A stretch of 64,000 nucleotides of DNA, taken from NCBI GenBank assembly GCA_034401795.1, contig CM067374.1:98304860-98368859 (forward strand), given 5' to 3'. The DNA is from Chaetoderma sp. LZ-2023a. Its lineage: Eukaryota; Mollusca; Caudofoveata; Chaetodermatida; Chaetodermatidae. Made by a program: the position numbers and the translations under genes. Positions 472 through 55,321 of the stretch are shown piece by piece; the stretch's first letter is position 1, and every line of letters begins with the position of its first letter. The notes under the pieces were generated by a model. That model made no database searches, was not told the DNA's origin, and saw only the letters and a list, made by a program, of their open reading frames with translations.

Positions 472-701
472 TCACGGCATTCCTCTACACACATTGAATT
501 TCTTGTGAGTGCTTTTATTTTGTCGCGATCGAAATCCTTTGCCACACCATTCGCAGTAATAAAATCGTCCCTCGTGGACAACTCTGTGATGCTGATGCAA
601 GTTACTGTGATCAGAATAGTGAAGATGGCAGATCTGGCAAACAAATGTCTTGTGGAGATCATCGCTCAGAGTCTGTACAGTCATTTGCCCCAATTCATAC
701 C
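472..701 (-). CDS. Alternative 3'-terminal zinc-finger exon zf10
   Basis: Most distal of ten minus-strand terminal exons. A strong acceptor (pyrimidine run ATTTCTTTCAG) ends at 702; two bases (GG) complete a split codon, then 75 residues run to the stop. The linker is short (about 18 residues). Finger 1 is C21-x2-C24-x12-H37-x4-H42; finger 2 is C49-x2-C52-x12-H65-x5-C71, a CCHC finger. The inter-finger linker HEGRFYYC is shared with zf4-zf9. Predicted role: DNA-binding C-terminus of one isoform of a nuclear transcription factor. The frame stays open up to 816-822, where a second, weaker acceptor (TGGTGAG) would also fit the phase; I prefer 701 because of the pyrimidine tract. Upstream constant exons are not visible. 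The zinc-finger assignment is sure; terminal-exon status is inferred from phase and stop. Confidence 0.88.
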
Positions 702-924
702 CTGAAAGAAATGGTTTAAAACCATTATTATCTGACTTAGGATGGCTAATTCCTATTAAATCTCTTTCATGTAAAGTGCCCAAGGATTCAAACCATGCCA
801 CCACCCCGAGGTTCATAATACCTCACCAGAAAGATGGGTACTTATTTACCTTGAAAATGCAACACTGAAATGATGACCAAAACAGTGATCCAATTTAAAA
901 GAAAAATTTTCTCACATAGTGTAA

Positions 925-1250
925 TATGCTGAAGCTGCATCCCTCATCCACCAAATCTTTAGCTCATATAATTGATAACAAGGTTGACAGAATCTCGGTA
1001 GTTGCGGATTCCAAAATTCTTCAGTTTTCATATTTTTTCGAATCACACCGCAAGTTGTCAAATCCTAGTGGATGGTCACACCCTTTCTTGTTAAAATTTG
1101 TGGTATCCACAGATCCAGAATTTGATCCAATCCGGATTCATATGGATCCTGGCCAGTCTGGAAATCCTCAGTTTCTTCAGTGTCTTATAATTTGAGGCCA
1201 ATCAGGTCCGCAGTTTTTGACATACAGCCCGCAATAATCTTTTGTGACTG
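925..1250. repeat. Dispersed repeat family E, copy 1
   Basis: It shares recognisable stretches with 59560-59830: 'AATTTGATCCAATCCGGATT' here against 'AATTTAATCCAATCCGGATT' there, both preceded by 'ATCCACAGATC'-like or 'ATCCATAGATC'-like sequence. It also has 'AAGTTGTCAAATCCTAGTG' against 'AAGTTGTGGAATCCTAGTG'. The two copies are in the same orientation and diverged. No coding potential was recognised. Confidence 0.6.
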
Positions 1251-3050
1251 ACTGACTGTTGAAGGGATAGTAATTTATTGAGCTGCTTCCCGCAGCTAAA
1301 AATATAATGGAGATGTCCAGAATGCTTGTAAAATAAAATTGTTAAAATAGTATACTTTTAGAGGACTAAATTGTGTGCCTAGATGTAAATGAAACAAAAT
1401 AAGTCTTAACATATGATGATTGCATTCCATATAAATTAATAAGTTTTTAAGTTGCGAAATTGGATTATAGACTCGTATCTCCAATTCAATTTCACAACTT
1501 TTAAAATTAATATTAATTAATATGTAATGAAATCATTATATGCTATGATTTATTTCGTTTCACTATGTCTAGGCAGATAATTTAAACCTCTATAACGACT
1601 ATAAGTATACTATTTTAACAATTTTATTTTCTTGCATTCTGGTGTGAATATGCACCGTAATTTTTTTTTTATTTAAAAAAAGTACTGCACTTTTGTGTAT
1701 ATTGTACACCCTAATAGGCCCTAATAGATAACATGCAAGGCAAAATTTGACAAAATATGAGCCAAAAGCCGTATACAGGTGCATGGCACGCAGTTGTAGT
1801 TCAGAAATGTTACAAACCATATGTTTTTGAGGAATGAAAATTGCAACTACTGCTATTTATACAAAATAATAATATTAGCTTATCGGCTATGTATGTGTCT
1901 TTTAAATTAATATTAATTAGTTTATTCCATACTTTAACTGTGATAGAACACATAACACCATCTTTGAGCGATAAACACACTCAATATACAGGGGAATCCG
2001 CATTCGTGTTCTTGCTAGATCTACGCTAACATAGAATACAATTATTACAGACAAAATAGACGACAATATTGTTTATAGCACTATAAGGCAAGAGAAAATA
2101 TAGCGATTACCCTTTGCTGATATCACACTTTATGCTGAATTTTACGTCTGGGCGTTCCGAAACAAAATTTTGAGCCCAAAAAATGTGATAACGGTTTATA
2201 TTAATAAATAGTATGCAACCCCTTCCTGCCCTGAGTGAAATGAGCAACAAAAACATCGTATAATATACACGAAAGTACAGTAAGTGAATTAATTTAATTC
2301 ATGTTTATAATTCGTATCTAGTAAGCATCCACCATTTTGTTTTGCAGCAGCCTTTTCTTTTCCCCACACCTCCAACCTAATAAAACAGCTCGACAAATCT
2401 AAATCTGTGCCCATTCACTTTTTGATGCCTCATGTGTAAGATATCTAGCAAGCACTCCAATATCAGTTTCTTCAAATAAAATACAGAGAAATCGCGAACT
2501 GAGGGTGCAAGAATGAAATGAGTACCTTTAGAATAATATCTTCTATCCCATCCAAGAAAAATATCCATTCAAAATTGGACATTAATGTGTAATTTTCTCT
2601 CTCAGACAAGTTATTCCATCTTGCACTAAGTCCAAGACATTTTAGAAATGTTAATAACGCTGGGTAGATCAACTCAATTCAATCCAGTTAGCTTATTTGC
2701 ATATGATCAAAGCGAATGCGGCCTAAATAAATACTCATAATAAGGTGTGCATATCTGATAGGATGCATGATTTTGCATTGTTACATCGCGCCACTGATAA
2801 GAATTCCCAGTAGCACAGGGCAGCTCAGGGTAATATGCAAACATCCAGTTCACGTGATCTGGTCAATATGCACACATGTGTTATATAACGTAGTGATTTT
2901 TGCAAAATGCAAAATGATGTGTTTAATGTGTGGGGGTGACCTATCAGTACAACGATCACTACCAATATTGCTCCACCATCACAACCATGACAACTAATAA
3001 CACCCCTACTTCACCACCCCCTCCCTCCCACTCCACATCAACACCCAAAG
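1250..3050. other. Intron-like AT-rich stretch, nothing recognised
   Basis: There is no conserved domain, splice-flanked open frame or clear repeat in this stretch. Open frames are short and scattered on both strands. By position it lies between alternative exons zf9 and zf10. Confidence 0.5.
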
Positions 3051-3055
3051 CAGTA

Positions 3056-3124
3056 CCACTACAACTACTACAACTGCTGCTGCTACTACTACTGCTACTA
3101 CTACTGCTGCTACTACTGCTACTG

Positions 3125-3160
<36 letters not shown>

Positions 3161-3171
3161 TTACTACTACA
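3056..3171. repeat. CTA/CTG trinucleotide microsatellite
   Basis: About 115 bases of mixed CTA and CTG triplets, preceded by a C-rich stretch (3003-3055). Opposite-strand and plus-strand open frames across it read as homopolymeric Leu or Val and are artefacts of the repeat. Confidence 0.95.
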
Positions 3172-3428
3172 GTATCAGGACAGCAACCACAACCGTGACA
3201 GTTATGCAAGTATCCAATCTTGTTATGTAATTTTGCCATTCCAATGGAGGTATCTGATCTGTTGCTCAACAGCTCAAGTATCTGATATCAATCAATTACG
3301 CGACTGGTTAGCTGACGTCAAAATCATGACCCATGCACCGTTTTGAAAATTGAATGTACAGATTGTAAGTCTTGATAAATTCATAATTTAATTAAGATTT
3401 CAATGAATATTTTGAAGCCAATTTGCTT

Positions 3429-3441
3429 GGGGGGGGGGGGG
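3429..3441. repeat. Poly-G run
   Basis: A run of about 13 G on the plus strand within otherwise unremarkable sequence. Confidence 0.9.
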
Positions 3442-3820
3442 AATATTTTTTAGATAGTAAAGACATAATTCATACAAAAGCTTAGTACGTCATCCATTAA
3501 GGGTTTGTGATGAACTTAGTTACATTATTCATAACGTAATTGATTGACGCCAGCCTACATGTCACATAGTTGATTATGACATCATATGATTGACTAAGGA
3601 ACTGGCTTTATCGATTTCTGCTAACATTGGAAGCCGCTTTAGAACAGAACGATCTATTTCTCTGCGAATACATGTACTCAGTTTGTAAAGGATCATTAAA
3701 CGTACATTTTAGACAGTACTTGGCTGTAGACTAATTGTAAACTAAAAGTTCAACTGTACAATTCTAATCTACTTTTCACCATTATATGTCTAAACTCTAA
3801 AGGTAGCAATCAATTTTCTG

Positions 3821-3826
3821 TTTATT
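3821..3826 (-). terminator. Candidate poly(A) signal for exon zf9
   Basis: Minus-strand AATAAA, 34 bases beyond the zf9 stop codon. The distance would give a very short 3' UTR, which is plausible but unproven. I find no equally close signal for most other zf exons. Confidence 0.45.
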
Positions 3827-3859
3827 TCTTTTAGAAGTTCCGTCATTCAATCTGTTGTC

Positions 3860-4116
3860 CTATTTACGACATGCACGACTAATTTTCTTATGCCCGTAAC
3901 GACGCTGTACAGAGTTGAACTTCTTCCCACAGACATCGCAAAAGTAAAACTTTCCCTCGTGCACGACCTTGCGATGCTGATTTAGGTATCCACGATGAGA
4001 ATACTGCATCCCACAAATTGGGCAGGAAAACTTCTTTTGTGTTTCTGTTCTTGATAACCAATGCTGTTCATCTGCAGGTGGTGGTAGTGTGTATCTTGAT
4101 GGAGAATATATACTCT
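3860..4116 (-). CDS. Alternative 3'-terminal zinc-finger exon zf9
   Basis: This exon has no ATG near its start, as expected of an internal acceptor-defined terminal exon. The acceptor TTGTATTTCAG ends at 4117; two bases (AG) complete a split codon, then 84 residues run to TAG at 3862-3860. The linker of about 28 residues is Ser/Pro-rich with a PPPAD stretch. Finger 1 is C31-x2-C34-x12-H47-x4-H52; finger 2 is C59-x2-C62-x12-H75-x6-C82 (CCHC). The linker between fingers, HEGKFYFC, is the subfamily A signature. The finger 2 helix reads SVQRRYGH, departing from the usual SRQ of its siblings. AATAAA follows the stop at 3826-3821. Expected product: DNA-binding tail of a lola-type transcription-factor isoform. 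Confidence 0.9.
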
Positions 4117-4189
4117 CTGAAATACAAGGTTATATATACGATGTCAAAACCACGCTAGGTATATATGTTATTCTAATGCCTAAATATAA

Positions 4190-4415
4190 CCTGATATTGC
4201 ACAGAAAGCTAGCCAAATTCACGATGTATCAAAGTTCAGCTGTGACTTTGAAAAATTTCCATTTGCAGGTGAAAAGAATACTTTTGAGGACTCTGTAGCT
4301 GAATTAGTAATTCCACTGATAAGATTTTTCACATTTTCTTGTTTCTTACAATTAAATGCCTTCCTCAATACTATTGCAGGAATTGCTTTTGTCTAGTTTG
4401 ATCACTGATGAATTA
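4190..4415. repeat. Family P foldback MITE, degenerate copy
   Basis: It carries 'TTTCCATTTGCAGGTGAAAAG' sequence on the left and 'CTATTGCAGGAATTGC' on the right, around a weak palindrome ('GAATTAGTAATTCCACTGAT'). It lies directly beside the inverted-repeat element starting at 4419. Confidence 0.6.
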
Positions 4416-4418
4416 AAT

Positions 4419-4890
4419 CCCCCAACAGACCCCCCTTTAGTGGGTTGGTCTGTAGTTTTATTAACCACTATAAAAACATACTTACCGTTCAATCACTACT
4501 TGCTAAATCAAATATCTGCATTTAGCTATCAGAATAAAATTTTTATACTCGCTTACATACTCCCTAATGCCAATACCATCACCATGTAGACCCTCAACCA
4601 GGCTTCTGGTAGAGGGACCCCCTGCATTAGCCTTACAATAGACTGGCACCAGTCTGTACACACTCCTTGGTGACGCCTGTCACTAAGCACGCTCGCGCAT
4701 GCGCAGTAGGTCCCAAATGTGAAAACTGATTCACTTTTCTAAATTTAAGTGCCATATATCCAGAATAGATTCTCAAATCAATACCCAGCGGGGTGGCTGA
4801 GGCCGGGTCGTAGTGATTGAACGGTAAGTATGTTTTTATAGTGGTTAATAAAACTACAGACCAACCCACTAAAGGGGGGTCTGTTGGGGG
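4419..4890. mobile_element. Short element with 81 bp perfect terminal inverted repeats
   Basis: 4419-4499 is the exact reverse complement of 4810-4890 (81 bases, read off directly). The ends begin CCCCCAACAGACCCCCC. Sequence inside the left end (4500-4745) matches 11520-11759 in inverted orientation; sequence inside the right end resembles 4943-5010 (GATTTGAGAATC motif). It therefore looks like an internally deleted, non-autonomous relative of the 4890-11812 unit. It has no coding content of its own. Confidence 0.85.
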
Positions 4891-5268
4891 TTGTTATTAC
4901 ACCACAAAAACATCCATTACCGTTCAATCACTACTTGCTAAACCCGTAGATTTGGTCAGTGCCCCACTACGAAACTTTGGTGGGAGGAGATTTGAGAATC
5001 CATAAGCAAGGATAAAAATCAAACAAAAGATAACCAAATGTTAATAACATAACATAATGGTGCATCTTAATCAATCACACAGTGATTATCAAAAAAGGAT
5101 TTCTTTAAACTTAAAGAAATAAATAAAAACCAAAGAACAACTCACACCATTCATGCAGACCCACGGTCCTAACGAAAATGGTGGGATGTGCTTGGTAAAT
5201 GGTCTTCAGCCTTTTTAGTTAAAATCATAAAGTTCCTAAACAAGGAAGCTGCTGTGCTCTGGTCTTTT

Positions 5269-6055
5269 TCAATAAAAAGTAGTAAAAGTAGACTCGGATT
5301 TCCATCCTGTAACTTGCATAACTTCGTCTACAGAAGAGCTAGCAAAAATGGCAAAAGAGGAAGCCATCCCTCTAATGACATGAGCTTTAATGTGAATGGT
5401 CTCACAAATCCAGCTGGGAATAGATGCCCTAGAGACTGGACTGGCCAACCCCTCCTCATACGGAACCCAGAAAAGGGACAGATCGGATCTCTAAAAATCA
5501 GAAAGACGCTTTAAACTTATGGAGCTCTGACAGGACACCAAAATCTGTCAGCCGGAGAAAAGGAGGTTAAAGATTGTGAAATAATCGGCTCAGCTGGATA
5601 ACGGATTGATTGAGTCTTTGACAAAAATTCCCTTCAAGGATATAAGACCAAACCGTCCCCAGATTCGATAAACCTATCCTTTTCAGCGGAGAAAACATGG
5701 ATTTCGGATCGACTTCTAGCAGAAGCAGATGCAATTAGAAAAACGGTCTTAAAAGTTAAAAGATTCAAGCTAATCGTAGAGATAGGTTGGAAATGATGAC
5801 CTGCCCAAGAACCTGAAGAACCAGAGCCAAGTTCCAGGAAGGCAAAGGTTTAACACCTGGAGGACGAATATTACCTAAACCTCTGATCAAAAGATTAAGA
5901 ACCATAGTATCTTCAACTTCAGCGTTCAACAAACCAGGAAGAGAAGATGCAAAAGAAAATCTATATCCTCCTACAGTGTTAGCAGACAGATGTAAAGAGT
6001 CGACCAGATAAGATAAGGAGTCTAGCATCTGGGAAATAGAAACAGAATCAGGCAC
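5269..6055 (-). pseudogene. Decayed DIRS-like tyrosine recombinase
   Basis: Minus-strand reading recovers the C-terminal catalytic region of a tyrosine recombinase in pieces. An N-terminal segment has SYLVDSLHLSANT, then RPPGVKPLPSWNLALVLQVL (6055-5765). Next comes LLTFKTVFLIASASARSRSE, which supplies the first conserved Arg. Further on is AHVIRGMASSFAIFASSS with the HxxR pair (near 5390-5370), and finally STFTTFY with the catalytic Tyr at 5274-5272. At least one in-frame stop (after DGLVLYP) and frame changes break it, and a TGA follows the Tyr directly. In DIRS elements this enzyme integrates a circular DNA intermediate. Family membership is firm on motif order; activity is excluded by the breaks. 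Confidence 0.85.
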
Positions 6056-6480
6056 GAGACCTTGATCTGAACACCATTCTCCAAAAATCTTAAGATTCCT
6101 GGGTTTGGATGATGGTAGGTACTAGAAGATCGAGAAGGTCTACAAACCAGATCCTTATTGGCCAAAAGGGAACTATTAACACGATCTCGCAGATCTGGTC
6201 CCTGACTTTCTTCAGAACCAAAAGAAATCAGGATTGTGGGAGGGAACGCATAAGCGAAGATTCCTGACCAGGACTGAGACAGGGCGTCCACAGCCCACGC
6301 CCAAGACAATTGGTCCGCAAGAAAACTCAGACAGCCTGGGACATGAGTGGACACTCGAAAATTTGTTTATTCATGCGACACCCCATGAGGAGGTTCCACA
6401 CTTCCAAGTACAGGAGAGACGACTTTGTGCCCCCCTGCCTGTTGATATAAGAGACTGCTGTCGAATTGTCCGATCGAATC
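6022..6480 (-). pseudogene. Decayed retroelement RNase H segment
   Basis: On the minus strand, DNSTAVSYINRQGGTKS (from about 6470 down) is the RNase H 'DN-x-A-x-Y-I-x-x-Q-G-G' signature. After a frame change, THVPGCLSFLADQLS gives the downstream H-x-P-G...A-D motif. DALSQSWSGIFAYAFPP then marks the linker that normally precedes the recombinase in DIRS-type and related polyproteins. The single frameshift lies between these motifs (around 6360). The segment abuts and overlaps the recombinase remnant, as expected for one polyprotein. Upstream, 6680-6486 is open and may be the RT/RH connection, but I cannot assign it. Confidence 0.82.
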
Positions 6481-7640
6481 GAGAACTAGAGACCCTTAAC
6501 CTGACTGTCCGAAAAGGGAGACATGAAAGATAAAATCTGGCCAATCAGACATGTCGCAAACAGATTGGATCTAGTAACATACCAAGAAAGACTCGATCCT
6601 CCTTCTAAAAATGAAAGAAATCCCCATGGCAATGGCTGAACGAATCCAACCCAGAACAGAAGCCTGGATTTACTTTCCACAGAAGAGCCTCTTCTTAGAC
6701 TCCTTGACGAGCATAGAAGACAACAAACCCTCTAAAGCTAATAGCTTCTGATTAGAGGAACAGAAGACCATTTGGGAGGAGACTGCAAAGAAGGGTTCTA
6801 GATCCAAGAATATCTGCCCCTTTTGATAAGGGCCGCCCTTAAAGATGTGGCAAGCTTACTATATGCTAAAGAGGACTGCTTATAGAAAACACATAGATTA
6901 CATCTGCCATGATGCTCCAACCAAAATCCTGGGCTATATCCTTATTGCTTAGCCCTCACTAAAGAGGTAACTCATGTTTATTATGGATATTCTAATAATA
7001 CCGCTTAGTCTGAATGGAGAAAAGTCTCATATCAGTATAGCTTAACTTATTAAAAAGCTAGACTCTGCAAAAATTATAGATAATTTTATTTATAGAGATT
7101 TAACCAGATATCGTGGGAAATCAAAAAACCCATAGTAAGCCTAAGGGAGTGCTTAGAGTCAAGATATAGCCAAATCCTGTACCTGAGATCTGCAATAATC
7201 CCGACTGGAATTCGAAAACCTCAAATTGTGACAGAATTTAGCAAGATAAAATGAAGAAACGAAATTACGGTTTCCCAAACCACCACTCAAAAAGATGAAA
7301 TAAGGGAAACTTACTTGTGATGACATCATCACAATTCTACGAATAGAACGCATGACAAGGTCCTGTTAAGAGAACTATGGCAAACATTTGACTATCTAAT
7401 TTAAAAATCGTATAATAATGGAGCAGATTTAACAAGAAAATTGTTATTGAATACATCAACGGTTGCCTAGCCGCTCGGGCTTGACAGATCATCTTGTCAG
7501 CTTGTCAAATAATACTTGATCTACGCAAGTATTTCTTACAAATAGTGTTAATGTATGGAATCCTTTACCAACAGAAGCAATTAACGCGCCAACATAAAAC
7601 ACATACAAAAACGACCTAGACTCATTCTTCAAGTCACAGG
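6480..7640. other. Interior of DIRS-like unit, probable degraded polyprotein sequence
   Basis: Minus-strand open segments (6680-6486, 7353-7159) are compatible with decayed retroelement coding sequence, for example a stretch reading LLALEGLLSSMLVKESKKR near 6760-6690. No reverse transcriptase catalytic motif could be identified. Confidence 0.4.
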
Positions 7641-7644
7641 GTTT

Positions 7645-7663
7645 TATATATATATATATATAT
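7645..7663. repeat. TA microsatellite
   Basis: A short run of TA dinucleotides inside the 4890-11812 unit. Confidence 0.9.
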
Positions 7664-8039
7664 CTAAGGTCGACTAACTCCCAAGATTGTACTCACTTCT
7701 TCTACACTGAAGTATTAGACTGCAATCACTGGAAAATCATCAGCCTGAACGTGACAGGATCCTATAATGATTGCAAAACTGTGTCCTATATTTAAATCAA
7801 CGACATAGGAAAAACAAGCCAGCTTCAAGACTTGGCTTAGGCATACTGATCAATTAGATATCCTAAACCATTCGATATTTATGCCCAGAGGCAGAAAACT
7901 TAAAAGATTTTGTATATATTTATTGATTCTTATATTTATAGTCTTAGAATCAATAATTTCATCTTTGTAATAACAAATGACCTTGTGTTAGAAATCCAGA
8001 TAAAAGGAAAGATTGAACACTGATACTTTATATTAACTG

Positions 8040-10500: not shown

Positions 10501-10551
10501 CTCTATAGCCGGAAACGGCGGAAGTTGACGAAAAAGCCAGATTATCATGAG

Positions 10552-11812: not shown

Positions 11813-11814
11813 TC

Positions 11815-13320: not shown

Positions 13321-13324
13321 ATGC

Positions 13325-13640: not shown

Positions 13641-13712
13641 ACTTATCAACAAACAGTGAAAATAAGACTGATAACAGATTATCACTGCCGTTAACAAATA
13701 GTTTACTGTAAA

Positions 13713-13716
<4 letters not shown>

Positions 13717-13757: not shown

Positions 13758-13760
<3 letters not shown>

Positions 13761-18265: not shown

Positions 18266-18576
18266 TCAAGTTGGTAACTGGCAAGCTATTGATGACTTCT
18301 TATGCGCACTTCTCTGCTGTCGTGAATTAAAGGTTTTCAGACACACATCGCATGTATAGAATCTCCCCTCATGAACCACTCTCTGATGTTGACGAAGATT
18401 CCGGTTATCACAATATCGTACTCCACACATATTGCAGACAAATTTCTTCCGGTCTTGTAGATCCGAAACACTGCGACGCCAGTTATCAAACAGGTCAATA
18501 GGTTGAATAAGAACTCCTGGATATGCACACCTTTGCAAGGCACTTAACACATTTTTATTATTTGCATCAGGGCACG
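18266..18576 (-). CDS. Alternative 3'-terminal zinc-finger exon zf8
   Basis: The acceptor CTTTGCTTTCCAG ends at 18577; two bases (CG) complete a split codon, then 102 residues run to the stop. The first GTG/ATG-like start would be at 18550, but the frame is open to the acceptor. The 46-residue linker is followed by finger 1, C47-x2-C50-x12-H63-x4-H68, and finger 2, C75-x2-C78-x12-H91-x6-C98 (CCHC). The signature HEGRFYTC and SRQQRSAHKK place it in subfamily A. Finger 1 helix positions -1/2/3/6 read D/R/N/Q. It would give one isoform of the shared transcription factor its own DNA specificity. A foldback MITE begins about 20 bases after the stop, an unusual invasion of the 3' UTR. Confidence 0.9.
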
Positions 18577-20695: not shown

Positions 20696-21096
20696 TTACT
20701 GAAAGTGTTTAGATGGAGAAAGATAAAGACAAGTTTTCTTGTGGTAGCTGAGAGCCTGTCTAGATGTATAGTTTCTTTGACACTTGTCGCACATATACAA
20801 AAATCCTTCATGAACAACTCTCATATGTTGTTTTAAATTTCCCTGATCCATATATGACATATGGCATTTATCACACTGAAATTTCCTTTGAAGATAATCC
20901 TGGGAATCTATGAATTCAAGTGTATTTGTATATTCTTCACTATTTCTAGCAGACGCGGTTATCCTTTCAATCCGTGGTGTGGAATAGATTTCTTTATCAG
21001 ACACTACATTCAGGCTGATATTCAAACGTTTGGCTCTTGTCTTGAGCAGAAAATCATAATTTGGGCATCCTTCAGAATCACGGATTGTCAAGTACT
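20696..21096 (-). CDS. Alternative 3'-terminal zinc-finger exon zf7
   Basis: The acceptor TTTAATTACAG ends at 21097; two bases (AG) complete a split codon, then 132 residues run to the stop. Finger 1 is C74-x2-C77-x12-H90-x4-H95; finger 2 is C102-x2-C105-x12-H118-x3-C122. Both exon length (401 bases) and the first seven Zn ligands coincide exactly with zf6, and the linkers share SARN-x-EE and the CPNY motif, so zf6 and zf7 are tandem duplicates about 3.5 kb apart. The finger 1 helix differs by D/E at -1 and the finger 2 helix reads SRQALSYH. The short H-x3-C spacing of finger 2 is unusual in the set; a later His lies in the tail. Expected product: the DNA-binding end of a transcription-factor isoform. 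Confidence 0.92.
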
Positions 21097-23310: not shown

Positions 23311-24167
23311 CACTAACACAGGTAACACTAACTGGTTGATGAAGTAAGCAGTAAATCCTATTTGAATTTATTGTATAATAAAAACTACTGCTGAAACTGT
23401 TACTGTCCTAAAGCAGTGATCCATTACAGATCCGTATACGAAAAAGGCCTACAGATCACAGGATTAGTGGTTAATTTCTAGCTCTGGACATATAGTCGGA
23501 ATGACAAACGAACAATCTAGCTGAGAGAGTATTGCTGAAAATTGTGTGAATTTCCTTGATATAGGTATAGACTATAGTCTAAGACATTTTTGTGCAGATT
23601 GTGGCCAAATCTTTGCCTGCATACTATTTATTCGTATACATGATAGAGCCAAAAATACCAAATTAATTTTTCAGAAAACATGCTCTGATCCACAGGGATC
23701 AGTTCCCAATATATATCGATGGCTCATTTAAAATACTGATTCGGGCACAAGAAAACCCAGTCTGAGGTCAAACAACACTACCACTACCAGGTTACCATGC
23801 CCAAAATGGGATTTAAATCGGCACAGAAGACACAAAATAAGTTTAATTGAACAATTCTATAATCTTCAAAGTTAATCACCTCAAAGAAAATATAACAAAA
23901 GAAATCTGAATCCACCACTTCCAGTAATCCCGAATTTGATATGGATAAATTCTAGATTACAATTCTGTAATATCTGATAAAGACTACAAAGTACTGGGAA
24001 ATTCTACTTTAGGGTAAAATCATTAATGCTAAACTCTAAGGCAAATTTGATCAGTAATCTGAGTAATCTCCAAGAAATGGCTGTGGATAGACAGATAAAT
24101 AAAACAGCCACATGCATTCAAATGCAATATTCTTGCCTGATGGTAATACACTGCTTACCAGTAAATG
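23310..24167. other. Nothing recognised
   Basis: Includes the 3' flank of exon zf6 (immediately below 24168 in minus sense). No domain or clear repeat was seen. Confidence 0.4.
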
Positions 24168-24568
24168 TTATTGAAATAGGCTAAACCTAGACATGCAGAT
24201 TCTAGTTTTCTTGTGAGAGCTGAGAGCTTGTCGAGTTGTAAAGTTTTTCTGGCACTTGTCACACATATATAAGAATCCCTCATGAACAACTCTGATATGT
24301 TGTCTTAAATTTCCCTGTTCCGTATAGGACATATGACATTTATCACAAGCATATTTCTTCTGGAGGTATTGCTGTGATTCCATGGATTCAGTTAGATTTG
24401 GAAATTCTTCAATATTTCTAGCAAAACTGGTCAATCGTTGCATGTGTGATGCGGCACAACTCTCTTTATTGGCATCAATATCCATGCTGATATCCAGGGG
24501 ATTAGACATTCGCTTGATAGGAGACTCATAATTTGGACATCGTGGATAATCACGGCTTATCCTGAAGT
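24168..24568 (-). CDS. Alternative 3'-terminal zinc-finger exon zf6
   Basis: The acceptor CTTTGTTTACAG ends at 24569; two bases (AC) complete a split codon, then 132 residues run to the stop. Finger 1 is C74-x2-C77-x12-H90-x4-H95; finger 2 is C102-x2-C105-x12-H118-x5-C124 (CCHC). It is the closest relative of zf7: equal length, same ligand positions, same HEGFLYMCDKCQ bridge, and similar linker landmarks (CPNY, FARN-x-EE, QQYLQKK against QDYLQRK). The intron just upstream also matches zf7 (CTGTTTCCTTT before the acceptor). Finger 1 helix positions -1/2/3/6 are E/G/N/Q against D/G/N/Q in zf7, so the pair may bind near-identical sites. Role as for the other exons: isoform-specific DNA binding. 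Confidence 0.93.
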
Positions 24569-26493: not shown

Positions 26494-26930
26494 TTAAGAG
26501 TAGAATCCAACAGTTTGTTGTCTTTGTGGTATTATGGTGCAAGCAGGACTAAGCTTTCGGTGTGAACTAAGCGCTTGACGGGAATTAAAATGTTTTCCAC
26601 ATATGCGACATACATAAACCATTCCTTCATGAACAACTTTAACATGTTGTCTCAAATTTCCATGGTCTGTGTACGATGTGTCACATTTGGGACACTGGAA
26701 TCTCTTTTTCAAGCCTGCAGGACCAGGAGATTGCTGATGCCTTTTATCCATATAGATGTTTGAAGATGTTAAACTTATATCACTGTATTGCCTAAGAGCA
26801 GGCCTAACTCTATTTATAGAAGACTGAATTTCTGTATTGCAAGCAATGTCTATGTCAGCGCACAATGAATCGTCTGTCAATTCCATGTTCTGTAAGAGAG
26901 ATCTGGTCCCAAAGCGATCGACTCTCAATT
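26494..26930 (-). CDS. Alternative 3'-terminal zinc-finger exon zf5
   Basis: The acceptor TTTAATTACAG ends at 26931; two bases (AA) complete a split codon, then 144 residues run to the stop, the longest of the set. The 78-residue linker contains an acidic patch (MELTDDSLCADIDI) and a Ser-rich stretch. Finger 1 is C79-x2-C82-x12-H95-x4-H100; finger 2 is C107-x2-C110-x12-H123-x6-C130 (CCHC). The bridge is HEGMVYVC, and the finger 2 helix SRQALSSH is the same as in zf6 apart from one position. A 14-residue Gln-containing tail follows the last ligand. The upstream intron end (CTGTTTGGTTTAATTACAG) resembles those of zf6 and zf7. Role: isoform-specific DNA-binding end; the acidic linker could add a regulatory surface, which is inference only. 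Confidence 0.92.
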
Positions 26931-31851: not shown

Positions 31852-32258
31852 CTACTGAGAACCATGGACTTCAGCTGGAGGCTTCCTTGAGGGTTCATGT
31901 GCACTTAAGCGGTGACGACTACGGGCTTGCCGAGTGGTAAACCTTCGCATGCAGACCTCACAGTAAAAGTAATGACCTTCATGAAGAACTCGTACATGCT
32001 GAAGCAGTCCAGCTCTATTTGCATATATGGCGCCACACTCGCAACACTCATTATTAGTCTTCGACTGTTTATTTTTATTGTACTCTTCCGTAGCCATATA
32101 AGTAACAAAACTCTCACAATTTGGTGTGCACAAAAACTGAGATTGTGAAGAAACAGAGGTGCTATCTATGTCAGGATATGTAGCGGGTAATTGCATTGTC
32201 TTTGGATATCTGGTACGGGCCGAGGCCAAGCTTGAAGGGTCAACCTTCAGTCTCATAA
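31852..32258 (-). CDS. Alternative 3'-terminal zinc-finger exon zf4
   Basis: The acceptor TTGCATTTCAG ends at 32259; two bases (TT) complete a split codon, and 134 residues follow, the first being an incidental Met. The 70-residue Ser/Thr-rich linker leads to finger 1, C71-x2-C74-x12-H87-x4-H92, and finger 2, C99-x2-C102-x12-H115-x4-H120. This is the only subfamily A exon whose second finger is a full C2H2 rather than CCHC. It has the bridge HEGHYFYC and the helix TTRQARSRH. Finger 1 positions -1/2/3/6 are N/A/G/Q, the most divergent in subfamily A. It is the first (most 5') subfamily A exon in transcription order. Role: isoform-specific DNA binding. Confidence 0.92.
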
Positions 32259-39890: not shown

Positions 39891-39891
39891 A

Positions 39892-40313
39892 CTACTTCAA
39901 CTTGCAATATTGTGCTCTATGTCGAGAAAGTGAAGATTGCCAGCGGAACAATTTTTTACAAGTCTCACAGGCGAACAGTCGTGAAGTATGTTTGCCTCGT
40001 AGATGCTCGCGAAGAGTTCGTACTGATGCAAAACTGTCTCCACATTGATAGCATACTAATGTGTTTCTGACAGTTTCACTTCTGCACTCAGATTTTCTAT
40101 CAGAATTCATTAAATGAGAATAAAGCGTCTCATGAGATGAAAATCTTTGTTGACACTTTGAGCAGGAATAGCCACTGCTTGTCGCCTGGAAATCCGCTTC
40201 ACTGATCAAAGAGCTAACACGAAAAGAACTTCCAGGATTCATAGAAAGTGGTATCATATGTGAACCTGGAACCTCTGTATCAACAGCATCAAGTGTTTCA
40301 CTGTTGTCAGGAC
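39892..40313 (-). CDS. Alternative 3'-terminal zinc-finger exon zf3 (three fingers)
   Basis: The acceptor CATTTCAAG ends at 40314; two bases (GT) complete a split codon, then 139 residues run to the stop. The extra fingers make it unlike the others. Finger 1 (C50-x2-C53-x12-H66, next candidate ligand C76) is degenerate. Finger 2 is C87-x2-C90-x12-H103-x4-H108. Finger 3 is C115-x2-C118-x12-H131-x4-C136 (CCHC). The bridge HTSRLFAC and the FRWQSSLSRH helix define subfamily B with zf1 and zf2, which lack HEG and SRQ. The linker before the fingers is acidic at its start (DNSETLDAVDTE). The frame is open 18 codons upstream of the first ATG, which supports entry by splicing rather than a start codon. 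Confidence 0.92.
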
Positions 40314-42516: not shown

Positions 42517-42869
42517 TTAACAATGATCTTTCTTCCTGTGCCGATACAAGGAATGTCGCCATTTAAATTGTTTGCTACACAATTCACAGGAATATGTTTG
42601 ATTTGTGTGCATACATGTCATATGTTCACGAAACGTAGCTTTTGAACTAAAGACAGTAGCACATTCTGGGCATTTCCATTCATAGTCAGAAGCCGATACC
42701 ATGTATCTCGGTGGCATTAACGTATTAGACAGTATGTTTCCTGCTAGAAAATCTGACTGTTGTAAAATTGAGGGGATCTGGCCATATTGATCTGCTGGAC
42801 TTGTAACTGCCGGCATTCTCGGATGATGACGATTCTTTTCAACCATTGATAGCCAAGTGTCACTTCTCT
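42517..42869 (-). CDS. Alternative 3'-terminal zinc-finger exon zf2
   Basis: The acceptor CTCTCTATTCCAG ends at 42870; two bases (AG) complete a split codon, then 116 residues run to the stop. Finger 1 is C66-x2-C69-x12-H82-x4-H87; finger 2 is C94-x2-C97-x12-H110-x4-H115, both full C2H2, with one Cys after the last His. The bridge HTNQTYSC and helix FKWRHSLYRH put it in subfamily B beside zf1. Finger 1 helix -1/2/3/6 is S/A/T/E. The 65-residue linker is Ser/Pro/Gln-containing and lacks recognisable motifs. The stop is followed by AT-rich sequence with no close poly(A) signal. Role: isoform-specific DNA-binding terminus of the shared protein. Confidence 0.92.
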
Positions 42870-42899
42870 CTGGAATAGAGAGATTGATCAATACGTTAA

Positions 42900-44420: not shown

Positions 44421-44429
44421 ACAGAACAT

Positions 44430-45600: not shown

Positions 45601-45809
45601 CGTAAAGCAGAGCTAAAAATAGGCTAGCAGCCGACAGAATGTCTCAGACTTATTGGCTAAGATAATTATCAATATTTTAATCAGCCTTGTTGATCTCTAT
45701 TCATGGATCAAGCCCATTAGGTTTGCGTTAATTCCAAACAAATTTTAAGCACGGATAGTTGACATTAATAGCACTACCCTAATGCAGTCCTTCAGAAATA
45801 AAATAGCAA

Positions 45810-47655: not shown

Positions 47656-48670
47656 CTGTGTCATGGTGCTATTAGGCCAGGTATAGGAAATTCTGGGTGA
47701 AATTATATATTATTGATTTTATCCAGCATAAATTAGAATGTTCCTAATCATGGCCAGCTGAATCATATGAAATCAAGCATGACAGTTCTTGGAGTATAGT
47801 GGAGAGGACAATAGCCCAATTAATAGCCAGGACAATTAAAGCCACCCAGCCTGCAGTGTGGACATAATAAATCACAGTATTCCAAGACATGTATATACTG
47901 AACTTTCATATATAACATACATCTGAAAATACATGTTCATAATCTGATAACCATTTTCATTCTAAATTCCCACAAACATATTTCAAGACATTGGCATAAG
48001 AAACCTGCATATTATTTTGGAAATAATTTGACTGAAAGTTGTTGCTGTCTCAAGCAGAAACAACTTTCGCTTTGATTGTTTTCAAAATAGTCATCAAGAT
48101 TTTCTGGTTTTGTCAGAGTAAAATACTGTCAACGCATACAGCATGAAAGTGGTTAATTATATTTATTTTATAGAATTGCATAAATCCTGTATTCACAAAT
48201 ACTAAACAAATTATTAATGATTTTAGACATGTTTTGAACTTATTTCGAACATGTCCCTTCACTAGCTTCCTGTTTACTTTAACTACCACTAGCTATAAAA
48301 TGTAAAGGAATTTGTGTATTTGGGAGAGTGAGTGAGAGAAACAGTGAGAGAGAGAGAGCTAGAGATAGAGATAGAGATATAGATAGATAGGAGACAGAGA
48401 TTTAAGCCAGAATAGTAGATAGATAGCGTTCTTAGTTTGTATAGAAATTTTGTATCAACATCAGTTTGTGTATAGAGTCAATTTAAAATTATTAAAAGTT
48501 GAAGTCATTTATTATTTGAAGAACCGTCTTGTTGAATACTATTAAAGTGTCTTCACCAATTTTCACCTGCCACCTCATCCTGGCAATTTCTGAAGTGTAG
48601 CAGAGCCATTGCCACCCAGCTAATCTCCCTCAGTGCTTTAAGATAGGTGGAAATTAGCCTCGCTACATCT
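47655..48670. repeat. Duplicated segment, copy 2
   Basis: The partner of 43680-44420 (see there). It is longer because of a GA-rich microsatellite (48323-48400) and extra unique sequence between the two shared blocks. Confidence 0.85.
48323..48400. repeat. GA/GATA microsatellite
   Basis: GAGAGTGAGTGAGAG then AGAGATAGAGATAGAGATAT, lying inside the second duplicated segment and absent from the first. Confidence 0.9.
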
Positions 48671-49390
48671 GTATGAATTTCTAGGAGTCCGGGACTCCGG
48701 GAATGTATCAAGTCAGAGATCAATGTAAAGTTGAGCGATCCTGTGACATGATTGTTATTATTACACGCTATTCTTACAAATTTGTTCTTAAAAAAATGTT
48801 TTCCTGATACAAATTGCTGAGTTTGGGGGTGGGTTTCTAATACAGTTTTGCGGTTTTGAAACTGCTAAGAAAACATTGGAGCATGTCAAAGCTAGGGGGT
48901 GGGATTCTATTTGAGAATGGGCTTTAATTAGGCAAAATACTACAATTAAATCTACTAAAATTATATGGAAAGTTAATGTTGCATCATGCAATTCAAACTT
49001 AACGTGTCAGGGTTTTCGTCAGTGACATTTTTTATTGTGACAACACTAGACAGGTGACATAGATGTCTTAATTGTGACATCCATTGACAAGTGACATATT
49101 TTGACTATGATGTCAGTTGAAACATATGCTTGATAGCTTGAGTGACAGTCCGAATTCATCAATTGACGTTGATAAATCTTAGTAGCATTGACTAGTTTCG
49201 TGTCACATCAGGCCTCGATATTTCAGAATTTATGACAGGCTATTTTTTGGTTCCGTGCACTGTGATGATGGGAACCTACCGGAAAATGATAATTTACCAT
49301 ATTATAATTTATTGGCAGGGTGAGCGGGAAAGCATCCTTAATAATCAACTGAATGGAAACAACAGAAATGATCTCGCCTGCCAGCACCTC
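48670..49390. other. Unassigned, with clustered TGACA words
   Basis: 49019-49130 holds repeated TGACA/GTGACAT words at irregular spacing ('GTGACATTTTTTATTGTGAC', 'CAGGTGACATAGATGTC', 'AAGTGACATATTTTGAC'). No gene. Confidence 0.45.
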
Positions 49391-49408
49391 ATATATATAT
49401 ATACATAC

Positions 49409-49468
<60 letters not shown>
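49391..49468. repeat. TA microsatellite, left flank of the hAT-like element
   Basis: TA dinucleotides with short TACATACA interruptions. Plus-strand Ile/Tyr open frames here are artefacts. Confidence 0.95.
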
Positions 49469-49472
<4 letters not shown>

Positions 49473-51051
49473 GGCTGGGCGGTTTGGCCAAAAAGAAAAC
49501 CGGTGACGGTATCACTAATTAAACCGGTATTAACGAAATACCGGTTTAAGGGGTTAGAATGATCAAAAATAATTTGAAATATTAAAATATGCCGTTTTCA
49601 TTAGCCACAGTACATGTATTTTGCGATTTGACAACTGACGTAAATTGCCACGAAATTAGAACGGTAACTACGTACGACTGCTCACTTCGACGCTATCTAT
49701 CTCAAAATAGTAGTTAAAATAAATTAAACAAATCGTCTGGTTCATGTGATGTCGTGAAAATAACACTAACTACTAAAATGTTAATTTTCAACACTGTTAT
49801 TAAGTAACTATTTTCGAAAGCCTACTAAAATCTAACGCGTGTAAGTAGGAACCCGGATATGAGAGCGAGTTTAGGCTCCTAGTAGAGTACTGCACATATG
49901 GTTAGAGTTCGTATAACCACCTACAGTATGATCTTTTCTAGTAAGTCATGTGTTTGTATTCGAGTATTCGGTATTTAGTAATACTCCTTGATAAACTGTT
50001 GTTCAAGTGGGTGAATGTCATTCAGCACGTAACTAAAGAGTAGTCATTTCCCAGAAATCGTGCCTCAAGAATTCTCACAAAAAATGTATTTGACTATTTT
50101 TCGAGGTTCATATGTCATATAATAGAGATTATGATAATTTGACAACATAAACGCAATGATTCGTGAATCTGGCTTAAATCTACTTAAATCAACACTCCGT
50201 ACTTGAAGATATACGAAGACGAAAAAGACCGGGCCGTAAAACAAAACGATGTGATTCTAACGTCTATCGAGCAGAAGTCGCGTGATAAAAAATACTACAA
50301 ATTTCATTCATAAAATTGATAGTAGTGAATATCCCGGCGGAAGAATTTGTTAACAACCAATCACATTATGCCTGCTTGTATTTGAGAGGCTAAGAGGTGT
50401 ATTTTACTTTAACTACTTTGCCAACCTAAGAAGCGACTTAATCGTTTTCATTTCTCGGGTGTTCAAGCAATTTGTCTCGTATGCCTTAGTCCGTGATGGA
50501 TCATTTTATGTTTGTTGAAATCTAAGGGACATAATGATTTGTTTGGATTGGGAGTTCATTGTATAGCGTCGTTGTTTTCACAGCGCGTTTCTTGATTTTT
50601 TTTGGTATCGTGTCACACTTGGAATCCTAATTAAACATAGTACAAACTCGAATTGAAAAAAGGATTATTTGTTGCAAAGAAATTTAGATTTTCAAAATAT
50701 TCAATCTTACATTGAACACGCAGAGCTTACGTCATGTAAAATTCATTGCTGGCAAATCAAATCATATTTGCCGAGGGTCGTCCTCGGCCGATTTGTTGGG
50801 ATTTCACCAACACCCTTGCTTTCCCACGGCTAATAGTTATAGATGACTGTATTTTATGTCTCTAGTAGCAAATGGTTACACCAGATGATAATATTAAACT
50901 GCAAGTCAAGAACAAACTAGTTTAGGACAGTCACCAGATTTTGCGCAATGGCGATCTTACGGTCAGTTTTTCGTTTTTATTTTCGTAATGGTTTTTAAAC
51001 CGTCGCCATAAAAAACCGTGAGACGGTGTGAAACCGGTATACCGCCCAGCC

Positions 51052-51055
<4 letters not shown>
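49469..51055. mobile_element. hAT-type non-autonomous element
   Basis: The ends are perfect 15-base inverted repeats: TTAGGGCTGGGCGGT at 49469-49483 and ACCGCCCAGCCCTAA at 51041-51055. The 'AGGGCTGGGCG' terminus is characteristic of a large group of hAT elements. Near each end 'ACCGGT' words recur (AAACCGGTATTAACG, GTGAAACCGGTATACC). The 1.59 kb interior has no transposase-like open frame, so it is a deleted or decayed passenger. The flanks are TA repeat on both sides, so an 8-base target duplication would be invisible. Part of the interior (50410-50490) is shared with family G copies elsewhere. Confidence 0.85.

Positions 51056-51114
<59 letters not shown>
51056..51114. repeat. TA microsatellite, right flank of the hAT-like element
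   Basis: Continues the TA tract interrupted by the hAT-like element. Confidence 0.95.
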
Positions 51115-51119
<5 letters not shown>

Positions 51120-51720
51120 CTGGCAACTGCGCTTTTGAACAATCAGTCAGGCTGTGTTATCGGACCATAGTAATTATATGATCATAAATGCCCGGAGATA
51201 ATAAGATTTCTATACGAAATACGTAAGATAGACCTCAAGTAATGCATGTATTTTTCTGAAAAGTTATTTCTCCAGAACTTGCCACCACAATCACAATCGG
51301 TCAATGCTGTTTGATTAACCAATTAATTAATTATACGTATGTTTAGCCTTGATGTCAGCATGAGGACATTCGTTTGAATGGGAAACACTCCTTGAATCTA
51401 TACTCGTAGGTGTGAATTTACTGTTCAAGTGTGATCTTATCAACACATACTATCACTATGAATGCTGTATATCGGCAAATTTGTATTTAGCTCATAGTTC
51501 ACTGATTGGCACCATCATCTTTGTTAACCCACTGGCCCAATAAACAAAAATGTCACATATCTCAATCTCCATGCAAACAAACAGGAAAGCTGTTAAATAT
51601 TTTGAAATTAATATGACTGAAGGCATTACTGCTTATTAGCTTGCTTGCAGGCATGTTAATTTCAAAATATTCAACAAAATATACTGGATATGGTAACTAA
51701 TTTACATTTCAGGGCTTTGT
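51115..51720. other. Unassigned, ending in a family F pair
   Basis: At 51593-51690 'TTAAATATTTTGAAATTAAT' and 'TTAATTTCAAAATATTCAAC' form facing ends around GGCATTACTGCTTATTAGC. This is the clearest palindromic pair of family F. Confidence 0.55.
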
Positions 51721-51960
51721 CTTTGAAGGGGTTAATGAACAAGGGGCCAAAATGTGATGTCAGTACTGAATGTCTATACGCAAGGCAAGAAGAGTATTTT
51801 CGAAAGTCTATCACCGAAATAACTGGCTCACCAACCGAACCAGTCATTCCAGTGGCAAATTAAAAAAAATTACATCCCTTTGCCTGTAAATGGACATTCA
51901 GTATTGAAATATTGTGATTTTTCTTAGGCAATCTTGACCATCAAAGGGCGAATCGCTGTT
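51720..51960. repeat. Family P foldback MITE
   Basis: 'AAGTCTATCACCGAAATAAC' and 'CATTCCAGTGGCAAATTAAA' arms; centre 'GGCTCACCAACCGAACC' is degenerate. Confidence 0.8.
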
Positions 51961-52059
51961 GCTTGCTGTTAATCTGTTCAGATATTCTAAGGCCCGATTT
52001 ATAAGTCGAACTTCTCATGTGCAGTGCCAGCAAGAGTCCACTATTTAAATCAACCAGTT

Positions 52060-52300
52060 GCCCTGTAGGTGGGGTTTAGAATACACCTTCCGTATCCTCT
52101 GCGTGTCGTAAGAGGCAACTAAGGGAGGTACGGTGAGGTAACCCTGACATAAATCTCGAGTGCTGAAGACGGAGGTTCCAGGCCACACGGCGCACTCTAA
52201 TAAACCATGGATCCACGCACTTAAAGCTTATGATCATGTCGATAGTCACTTACAGGACTGGCGGTATGATCAGTGAACGACAAGAAGAAGATCAACCAGT
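52060..52300 (+). repeat. SINE-like dispersed repeat
   Basis: The head 'GCCCTGTAGGTGGGGTTTAG', then 'TACACCTTCCGTATCCTCTG' and 'CGTGTCGTAAGAGGCAACTA', resembles tRNA-derived SINE-like repeats widely seen in mollusc DNA. The tail ends in a simple AAGAAGAAG. I have not shown A and B boxes, so the class is tentative. Confidence 0.55.
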
Positions 52301-52607
52301 CATCATTGGCACGGCGCGACCGAAAGTTCCACATAAAACAGGCCTAAGGATTTTAAAATTGTACTGTTTTGGTTAAATTGACAAAGCCTTCAATAGGAAT
52401 TTTTTGCAAGTCTGAACAAGCTGCTTAATAATTCGCCGTTATTTTCCAGCCCCCACCCTACACCAAACCTTTATGCTTAATAATAGGTGGGAGGGATATC
52501 ATATTATTACCACATTTTCTCACCAGATTGACAACTATGTGTACACGTCTGTTCAAGCTAACGTGTACAAGTGTACTAGTATTGTTCCAAATGCACACCC
52601 CTAATAA

Positions 52608-54600
52608 CAACAAGAGGCCCAAGGGGCCTGTATCGCTCACCTGGACAATAGGCATTTCAACTAGAATGCTCTTTATCAACAAGATATTTTACCACATAAT
52701 CTATTGGCAAACCATTTATCCGACAGTTTCGAAAAATTGCAAATTTGAGATCAGAATACCCAAAAACACATAAAAACAATTTCGGCCTCAAAATCAATCA
52801 AAAAAAAAATGGCCACCAAACATGCTATATTTTGATTGGCCCACAGCGGCCATGTTTTTTGACGGATCAACTTCTCTGGAACAAACTTTAATGGCCCTTA
52901 GGCCCTAATCATATGTGCCAAATTTTGGCCCGATCCCTTCAGCGCTTCTGGAGAATACGTCATTTTCGCTACAACTAGGTCAACCAAGATGGCCGCCGAA
53001 CCAATTGACCAATCAAGTTCCCTTGCCATAAATCATATTTCATGAGGTTTGCATCAATCCCCCAAGCCGTTTCGGAGAAGATTTTTAAAGACGTTTCCTA
53101 AAATCGGCCTAAATCCAAGATGGCCGCTGGCCTAATTGGCCGATCGAGTTCATTTGAACAAACTTAGATCTCTATTCCCTATGAATGCTTCCTCCAAAAT
53201 ATAACTGAAATCGGCCAAGTGGTTCTTGAGAAGTCATTTAAAGAATTCCCCATTGCTTTACTATGGCTCATTGCTTTACTATGGGAGCCTTTGGCGGGAA
53301 AACAAACCAAGATGGCAGCCAAACCGTTTATCTGACAGTCTCGAAAGTGGCATATTTGAACTCGCCACACTGATAAGCATATATAAAGCAATTTTCGCCA
53401 TCAAACTACACCAAATATAAAAAAGCCAATATGACCTAGAAACTCTGAATTTTGATTGGTTGATGGAGGCCAAGTTTTTTAACGAACAAACTTCCCTTGA
53501 ACAAACTTGAAAGGCGCTTGGTCCCTAAGCATATTTACAAAATTTCAGCTCTATCCCTTCAGCAGTTCGGGAGAAGTCGTTTTCACGAAAACTAGGTCAT
53601 CCTAGATGGCCGCTAAGCAAATCGGCCAATCGGGTTGCCTTGAACAAACTTGGGTCTACCGCTACCACAGATGATGTGTTATGAGGTTTGAATCAATTCC
53701 TCCAGCGGTTTCGGAGGAGATTTTTTAGTGTTTCTAAAAATCAGCCATTTTGGCCAACGGCCATCTTGGATTTTGACCGATCCGCTTCGTTTGAACAAAC
53801 TTAGATCTCTATGCCCTATGAATGCTTCCTCCAAAATATAATTGAAATTGTCCCAGTGGTTCTTGAGACGAAGTCGTTTAAAGAATTCCCCATTGCTTTA
53901 CTATGGGCCCATTGCTTTACTATGGGAGCCTATGGCGGGAAAACAACCCAAAATGGCAGCCAAACTGTTTATCCGCTAGTCTCGAAAGTGGCATATTTGA
54001 ACTAGCCACACTGATAAGCATATATAAAGCAATTTTCGCCATCAAAATACATCAAATACAAAAAAGCCAATATGACCAACAAACACTAAATTTTGATTGG
54101 TTGATGGCGGCCATGTTTTTTAATGTACAAACGTCCCTTGAACAAACTTGAATGGACCTTGGTCCCTAAGCATATTTACCCAATTTCAGACCTATCCCTT
54201 TAGCGGTGCGGGAGAAGTCATTTTCGCGAAAACTAGGTCATCCAAGATGGCCGCCAGGCAAATCAGGTTGCCTTGAACAAACTTGGGTCTACCATTGCAA
54301 TAGATGATGCGTTATCAGTTTTGAATCAATTCCTCCAGCGGTTTCGGAGAAGATTTTTTTAAGTGTTTCTAAAAATCGGCTATTTTGGCCGCCGGCCATC
54401 TTGGATTTTGGCCGATCGGCTTCATTTGAACAAACTTGAATCTCTATGCCCTAGGGATGCTTCCTGCCAAATATAATTGAAATCGGCCCAGTGGTTCTTG
54501 AGAAGAGGTCATTTTAAAGGAAAAGTTGGCGGATGGACGACGGACGGTCGCCACGACATAAGCTCACTCGGCCTTTCAGGCCAGGTGAGCTAATAATAAA
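52608..54600. repeat. Repeat array family A, second location
   Basis: It opens CAAGAGGCCCAAGGGGCCTG at about 52610 and closes AAGCTCACTCGGCCTTTCAG then GCCAGGTGAGCTAATAATAA at about 54595. It contains an internal direct duplication of about 650 bases (53240-53530 against 53885-54170: 'CATTGCTTTACTATGGGAGC', 'TAAGCATATATAAAGCAATT'). Some sub-units run in inverted sense ('GCCATCTTGGATTTTGACCG', 53762). Confidence 0.88.
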
Positions 54601-54929
54601 CTACCTGGCATAAACGTATTACACAAGAGATGTATGGTTTGTGACACAAATAAACTGCTCTTCAACCTGATTGACAAGCCGCCTATAGTACATATGTACA
54701 AATATGACAAGACAAAGAATGGTACTATATTCCATTTCTTTGTTGAACTTAAATGTTTCTTCGGTATAACTTTGTTGAACTTGACTAAATGTTTCTTGGG
54801 TATAATGGTTGTCCATCATGTATATAACTATCATTGCATGTAATTTCTTTGATGGGTAGCTAAATACTACAATCATACATGTACAATTGATGCATACCAT
54901 AAACATGATAAACGTTTAACGCGTACATC
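54600..54929. other. 3' flank of exon zf1, nothing recognised
   Basis: A short direct repeat 'GAACTTAAATGTTTCTT'/'GAACTTGACTAAATGTTTCT' lies at 54745-54800. No poly(A) signal that I would defend. Confidence 0.4.
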
Positions 54930-55321
54930 TCAGTTGTTCGGTTTATGCTTCTGACTTTTATGCCAGTACAGAGATCGTCTCCACCGGAACTCTTTCAAGC
55001 AAATGTTACATGTGTATACTTGGCCAGAGTGTTTGCACTTGATATGTTCTCGAACGGTTTGCGAGGACTTGAAAAGTGACTTACAAACAGGACATTCATA
55101 TGGAAGATTCAAAGCAGATTCTGGATTCAGGTTGCGAAACTGTCCATCGTAATTTGACATGGACTTATGTCTCATATAAAATGGTGCAGATGCTTGCTCA
55201 ATAAGTGGCACAGAAAGACTTCTACTTTTATTGGATTGGTAATTGTCAATCAAACTGGAAGGCTGGTCTGGATAAGAGCTGGCTTTCAGGATTGATGAAA
55301 TCTTGGTGTCATAGTAGCTCA
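54930..55321 (-). CDS. Alternative 3'-terminal zinc-finger exon zf1 (most 5' of the set)
   Basis: The acceptor TATTTTTTTCAG ends at 55322; two bases (TG) complete a split codon, then 129 residues run to the stop. There is no in-frame ATG near the start of the open frame. The 75-residue Ser/Tyr-rich linker precedes finger 1, C76-x2-C79-x12-H92-x4-H97, and finger 2, C104-x2-C107-x12-H120-x4-H125, both C2H2. The bridge HSGQVYTC and helix FRWRRSLYWH define subfamily B with zf2 (REH in finger 1, W-R in finger 2). It ends in a basic KSQKHKPNN tail. As the first alternative exon after the missing common part, it is the nearest to the expected constant exons. Role: isoform-specific DNA binding. Confidence 0.93.

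Follow-up and report, generated by a model that had tools for sequence, protein, structure and literature searches.

Does a row of zinc-finger exons that share strand and splice phase belong to a single gene, or does each exon mark a gene of its own? This question is raised by a window of 64,000 nucleotides from Chaetoderma sp. LZ-2023a (C16:98304860-98368859, contig CM067374.1 of a 2.44-Gb assembly), where a sequence-only reading had described ten alternative 3'-terminal exons of the kind known from the Drosophila gene lola. Flanks of 100 kb were added on either side, and 264 kb were examined; coordinate w of the window corresponds to C16:98304859+w, features beyond the window included. The exon anatomy of the locus points to one minus-strand transcription-factor gene of about 165 kb, in which a constant 5' part would be followed by one of at least 21 alternative terminal zinc-finger exons. 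A probability of roughly 0.88 is assigned to this reading.

Terminal exons and the shared 5' exons

The ten exons reported for the window were verified. Each lies on the minus strand behind an AG acceptor and has two bases ahead of its first complete codon, an open frame with zinc fingers and one in-frame stop (10/10). No variation among the ten is seen in seven zinc-ligand columns (four Cys and three His), and PF00096 (zf-C2H2) matches nine of the exons. A search of the window with a profile of the fingers returns these ten open reading frames (ORFs), all on the minus strand (next best match, E 0.16). All-against-all comparison of 1163 six-frame ORFs (at least 30 amino acids) places the exons in one group of 11; the eleventh member, plus-strand ORF 23525-23728, probably joined by chance or through weak similarity. 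Of the remaining large groups among the 15 listed, most fall in nucleotide repeats of the window or have members on both strands. At the nucleotide level, repetition among the ten exons is confined to the pair with acceptors at 21096 and 24568.

The reported list was incomplete, since 11 more ends lie below coordinate 1 and the array is about twice the size first described. Across the 264 kb the finger profile gives seven further strong matches, all on the minus strand, and four three-finger exons of another type (type C) were reached through weaker profile matches. At least 21 terminal exons (T1-T21) are spread over 136.5 kb of the minus strand, reaching 81 kb past the window; plus-strand ends were not found by the finger profile in the 264 kb (best E 0.26). 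The exons are of three types, B (T1-T3, n = 3), A (T4-T17, n = 14) and C (T18-T21, n = 4). Fingers of type A share on average 49% identity, those of type B 41% and those of type C 38%; across types the mean is 25-29%.

All terminal exons close with a stop, and the strongest donor within them reaches 3.8, against 5.0 and 6.8 in the two shared exons described below. In 19 of the 21 ends the acceptor with the highest score is in the fitting phase (exceptions T11 and T4); in T5 the adopted acceptor is slightly outscored by one at 26714, in the same phase. Nonsynonymous (dN) and synonymous (dS) divergence was estimated for a single pair, T6/T7, with dN 0.17 and dS 0.94 in the fingers and dN 0.41 and dS 0.59 in the linkers. 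The fingers of this pair are under purifying selection, and the exons are therefore maintained, as far as tested. The usual base-contact positions of a zinc finger are numbered -1, 2, 3 and 6. Many of the exons carry different residues at these positions, which suggests different DNA preferences among the ends.

The equal phase of the exons had been used as an argument against unrelated genes. The phase itself is observed, but it is insufficient alone, because tandemly copied whole genes are also phase-matched; upstream exons are needed to decide. A shared upstream donor, as predicted, was found in cis, on the strand of the ends and in the expected phase. It belongs to one of two shared exons located 12-19 kb upstream of the window. 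The best coding score in the 264 kb (ORFs of at least 40 amino acids) is that of minus-strand ORF 75951-77015, which holds a Ser-rich linker exon. Its acceptor (TTTTCAG/AGATTAAC, exon boundary at the slash) and its donor (CTGATG/GTAAGT) are both of phase 1. In a scan for upstream exons the linker exon scores 41.3 against 22.7 for the next candidate, by eye a fragment of a long interspersed nuclear element. The split base that its donor provides is G, with which all 21 ends are open; T instead would start 8/21 with a stop.

The ATG exon lies about 6 kb upstream of the linker exon and comprises 46 codons with a phase-1 donor (CTAG/GTGAGG). An in-frame stop stands four codons before the ATG and an acceptor 30 nt before it; the acceptor implies a further, non-coding exon upstream, which was not located. 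The ATG exon was chosen from a list of weak candidates; confirmation came afterwards from an independent copy in the opposite orientation. This copy, at 179192 in a neighbouring divergent gene, has 40/46 residues alike (dN 0.07, dS not computable) and sits upstream of a paralogous linker exon at 193637. The ATG exons were missed by blastp of both strands of the divergent interval and by donor-anchored comparison, and were found by the splice-site scan and phmmer. Another candidate pair of shared 5' exons, 183733 (-) and 191215 (+), was rejected, as both lie in repeated DNA. From the first shared exon to the last end the gene covers C16:98223651-98388177 (~165 kb).

Repetition of the layout in related genes

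A genome search with the linker exon gives ten diverged relatives at E<=1 (four at E<1e-3 and six at E 0.02-0.22). In 10/10 of these paralogous linkers the motif AP[KR]WI[KR]DYSMS stands near the start, a phase-1 acceptor precedes it and a phase-1 donor is present near the end of the ORF; some of them also contain other internal GT sites, in part in other phases. Genome-wide, the ATG exon gives 37 matches including itself, 35 of them at E<=0.0015. The best donor is of phase 1 in 34 of the 35 further ATG exons fetched, and some of the 34 are weak sites. Upstream of each of the 11 linker exons, in cis and on its strand, stands an ATG exon at a distance of 1.0-21.5 kb.

The type-C query T19 yields 113 matches at E<=0.01, and the counts given here use the 92 at E<=0.001. 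At E<=1e-5 every match (56/56, query included) lies within 400 kb downstream of a same-strand ATG exon, as do 68/70 at 1e-4 and 77/92 at 1e-3; none of the remaining matches had an ATG-exon partner on the opposite strand only. About 0.3% of the strand positions of the genome lie within that distance downstream of a same-strand ATG exon. The 77 matches belong to 11 ATG exons, nine with at least three ends and two with one each. The largest number of type-C ends under one ATG exon is 23 (C9:21022613), counted with the single query. Type-C ends occur downstream of eight of the 11 linker genes. In an author-chosen sample of 12 paralogue ends from eight arrays, the best acceptor of each end is of fitting phase (12/12), one of these acceptors being weak. 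The type-A search with T5 gave 94 matches, of which 27 were typed, and the 16 at E<=1e-5, itself included, all fall in the present array.

Several related genes form divergent pairs, with ATG exons 60-170 kb apart: C16:98388010(-)/98484051(+), C11:183701592(-)/183842911(+), C6:31257425(-)/31426699(+) and C6:9785479(-)/9848557(+). Four very similar ATG-exon-like stretches (L069, L070, L072 and L074; VTPWTESYFVMWLDMKVAEYKVLGHMRL and near variants) on C9, C6 and C8 are perhaps carried by a mobile element.

Proposed mechanism and competing explanations

According to the favoured model, the polymerase would most likely transcribe the array in part or as a whole; splicing would then connect the linker exon with a single terminal exon, in which the transcript would be cleaved and polyadenylated. 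We infer this joining, one end at a time, from the exons, their phases and their order. The ATG exon would encode a conserved N-terminal module, joined to the Ser-rich and probably disordered linker exon; each terminal exon would contribute a linker of its own and then two or three C2H2 fingers, closed by a stop. The choice of end would set DNA-binding specificity, the fingers of different ends binding different DNA sites, and the N-terminal module and Ser-rich linker would stay constant. The N-terminus is presumably a protein-interaction module, which may mediate pairing or cofactor binding.

The array could also consist of one or a few terminal exons in use and of others that are decaying relics. 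Loss of ends occurs, as a clearly degenerate type-A copy at about -1010 to -880 indicates. Against a general decay stand the open frames of 21/21 ends, each with an acceptor of fitting phase, and the purifying selection on the T6/T7 fingers, the one pair tested. This explanation is accordingly improbable.

Tandem copies of equal phase would likewise arise by whole-gene duplication if the array were a row of independent small zinc-finger genes that each had a promoter and a first exon. Type-A exons that lie closer together are more similar (Spearman -0.33, Mantel P 0.0095), which fits tandem copying. However, genome-wide searches revealed no second ATG or linker exon within the array, which has one of each for 21 ends, and in four of the 21 ends no Met precedes the first finger; hence, not all of them can be single-exon genes. 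The phase-matched donor and the ATG exon precede the array as a whole, an arrangement found again in paralogues. Separate genes are therefore very improbable here. Joining of the ends in trans from separate precursor RNAs, as in some lola and mod(mdg4) isoforms, has a precedent in the fly (available text of PMC11426971) and would suit the divergent gene pairs and the long stretches, as much as 157 kb, between the shared donor and the ends, but all needed parts are in cis on one strand and trans-splicing would not require 56/56 type-C matches (E<=1e-5) to lie downstream of an ATG exon on its strand, so that it is unnecessary to explain the gene and has a very small probability.

The following points weigh against one gene with alternative ends. 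The model is drawn from exon anatomy in one genome of one species. A differently phased acceptor outscores the fitting one in T11, an other-phase acceptor at 32136 scores equally in T4, and in T2 an other-phase site at 42756 is nearly equal (2.5 vs 2.6). Polyadenylation signals after the stops are uninformative, with a chance expectation of 83% per kb, and T4 and T18 (2/21 ends) have none within 1.5 kb. The coding model was small and trained on few genes, and the upstream exon scan was strict (66 acceptors kept, repeats excluded). Six of the ten linker relatives have individual E-values of only 0.02-0.22, and three, on C6, are nearly identical copies, so that the 11 linkers are not independent; these three genes (3/11) have no type-C match downstream. 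In all, such a match is missing downstream of 26/37 ATG exons, and 15/92 T19 matches at E<=0.001 are without an ATG exon nearby. The ends in one array are not independent, and 56/56 does not amount to 56 trials. The type-B query is unspecific: 8/24 matches at E<=0.001 are in the present array, and two elsewhere have E<1e-5.

The N-terminal module and known systems

The N-terminal module consists of the ATG exon and the first residues of the linker exon, about 66 residues in total, with 22 invariant positions in nine relatives and the approximate consensus SQFxxWLDEKVAEFKxxGxMNL...APKWIKDYSMSM. The alignment includes nine of the 11 linker/ATG pairs (two nearly identical C6 copies omitted), two of the nine starting at an inner Met.

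A BTB-type N-terminus had been expected by analogy with the insect genes, and a search for the domain on the minus strand of the upstream 100 kb had been suggested as a check. This part of the sequence-only reading is not borne out. None of the 77 BTB matches in the genome is near the gene; on C16 the closest one is ~2.4 Mb off and in opposite orientation, and the strand of the gene has none nearer than 8.5 Mb. Eight BTB loci of this genome were fetched, and seven of them, all but one that escaped the search pattern, went into a BTB profile; it finds nothing in the 264 kb, upstream 100 kb included (best E 3.1). Comparison of the module with BTB by hhalign gives a probability of 0.4%, a weak test with a shallow alignment and one column aligned. 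The N-terminus has no Pfam match at E<=10, and the best chance match of the nine-relative alignment (E 0.031) is not BTB. No PDB match to the module was obtained below E 0.028. The best Pfam match of the linker exon is SBF (E 0.12, under the family cut-off). A large protein database contains no homologues of the ten window exons, of the linker with one end or of the N-terminal alignment at the limits used; this collection probably has few animal proteins, so its blank says little on the spread of the family. A cluster of BTB ORFs of about 930-1070 amino acids on both strands (8 matches) is located at C3:58971748-59414996.

Alternative zinc-finger ends behind a shared N-terminus are also a feature of insect fruitless and broad, which have few alternatives and a BTB domain, whereas no BTB was found in the present gene, which has 21 or more ends. 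For Drosophila lola, 20 isoforms are reported, 17 of them with different fingers, in the available text of PMC11426971. The likeness to lola is one of anatomy only and consists in one constant N-terminus and many alternative C2H2 ends of equal phase, 21/21 of which fit one donor here. In contrast to lola, an arthropod BTB gene, the present gene is molluscan and has a short module without known match in place of any BTB found, and it belongs to a multi-gene family. The TTK-type BTB is reported to be arthropod-specific (PMC11426971, same text). The mod(mdg4) gene also derives very many alternative C-termini (at least 30 isoforms) from one N-terminus; according to that text it combines BTB with mostly FLYWCH ends and trans-splicing, whereas here the ends are C2H2 and all in cis. 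In cephalopods, lineage-specific expanded clusters of C2H2 genes have been described (PMC9068888), and in this respect the present locus is another lineage-specific C2H2 expansion in molluscs; PMC9068888 counts genes, however, and its available text does not mention alternative terminal zinc-finger exons. Among the titles and abstract openings listed by literature searches, none describes alternative terminal zinc-finger exons outside insects.

The lola architecture without BTB, together with the absence of such a case outside insects from the literature listed, leads to the conclusion that the gene works like lola without belonging to that family. The earlier proposal of a combinatorial transcription-factor gene outside arthropods is supported for the alternative 3'-terminal exons and the one constant 5' part, and not supported for homology with lola.

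To our knowledge, genes that swap whole DNA-binding ends are known only from insect BTB genes. If the same arrangement with an unrelated N-terminus is real in a mollusc, the architecture would have evolved twice. It would provide an independent case in which to ask what the design is for (neuron identity in lola) and a new protein module to study. Standard annotation would probably list these ends as many separate or missing genes. More tentatively, and with somewhat less than even odds, molluscs could possess a combinatorial system of their own, independent of the arthropod BTB genes. As many as 37 genes that share a new interaction module would make up this system, nine of them at least having three or more ends, and about a hundred or more DNA-binding isoforms could pair through the module and serve as a cell-identity code.

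Table 1. Exons assigned to the gene, in window coordinates (negative values lie below coordinate 1). In T1-T10 the higher coordinate is the acceptor position.
Feature	Coordinates	Strand	Type	Remarks
ATG exon	83150-83318 (C16:98388009-98388177)	-		46 aa (amino acids); splice-site scan and paralogous copy
Linker exon	76073-76999 (C16:98380932-98381858)	-		927 nt, Ser-rich; top coding score and splice sites
T1	54930-55321	-	B	two C2H2 fingers, stop TGA
T2	42517-42869	-	B	two fingers
T3	39892-40313	-	B	two fingers and, by eye, a degenerate one
T4	31852-32258	-	A	two fingers
T5	26494-26930	-	A	two fingers; query of type-A genome search
T6	24168-24568	-	A	nearest relative T7
T7	20696-21096	-	A	nearest relative T6; no Met before fingers
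T8	18266-18576	-	A	no Met before fingers
T9	3860-4116	-	A	no Met before fingers
T10	472-701	-	A	
T11	-1699 to -1970	-	A	
T12	-7030 to -7289	-	A	
T13	-12976 to -13247	-	A	
T14	-17626 to -17879	-	A	
T15	-27282 to -27607	-	A	
T16	-35195 to -35538	-	A	
T17	-45145 to -45548	-	A	
T18	-56105 to -56574	-	C	
T19	-63107 to -63603	-	C	query of type-C genome search
T20	-66879 to -67321	-	C	
T21	-80682 to -81208	-	C	

Rfam and tRNA scans of the window gave nothing. A minus-strand ORF at 5765-6121 resembles, by eye, part of the tyrosine recombinase of a DIRS-type retroelement. Just past the array, at -86317 to -85343 on the minus strand, a 325-aa ORF appears by eye to be the end of a basic helix-loop-helix transcription factor.

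The host had been called a probable mollusc from the sequence, and this is supported by the presence in the same genome of molluscan-type haemocyanin, PF14830 (44 matches, best E 5.6e-40, on C8, C17 and C1610), a family which we take to be restricted to molluscs. The haemocyanin genes form arrays with repeated units at C8:96.37-97.02 Mb, C8:80.83-80.92 Mb, C17:62.63-62.66 Mb and on C1610. Some of their matches score identically on C8 and C17 and are possibly recent copies or assembly duplicates.

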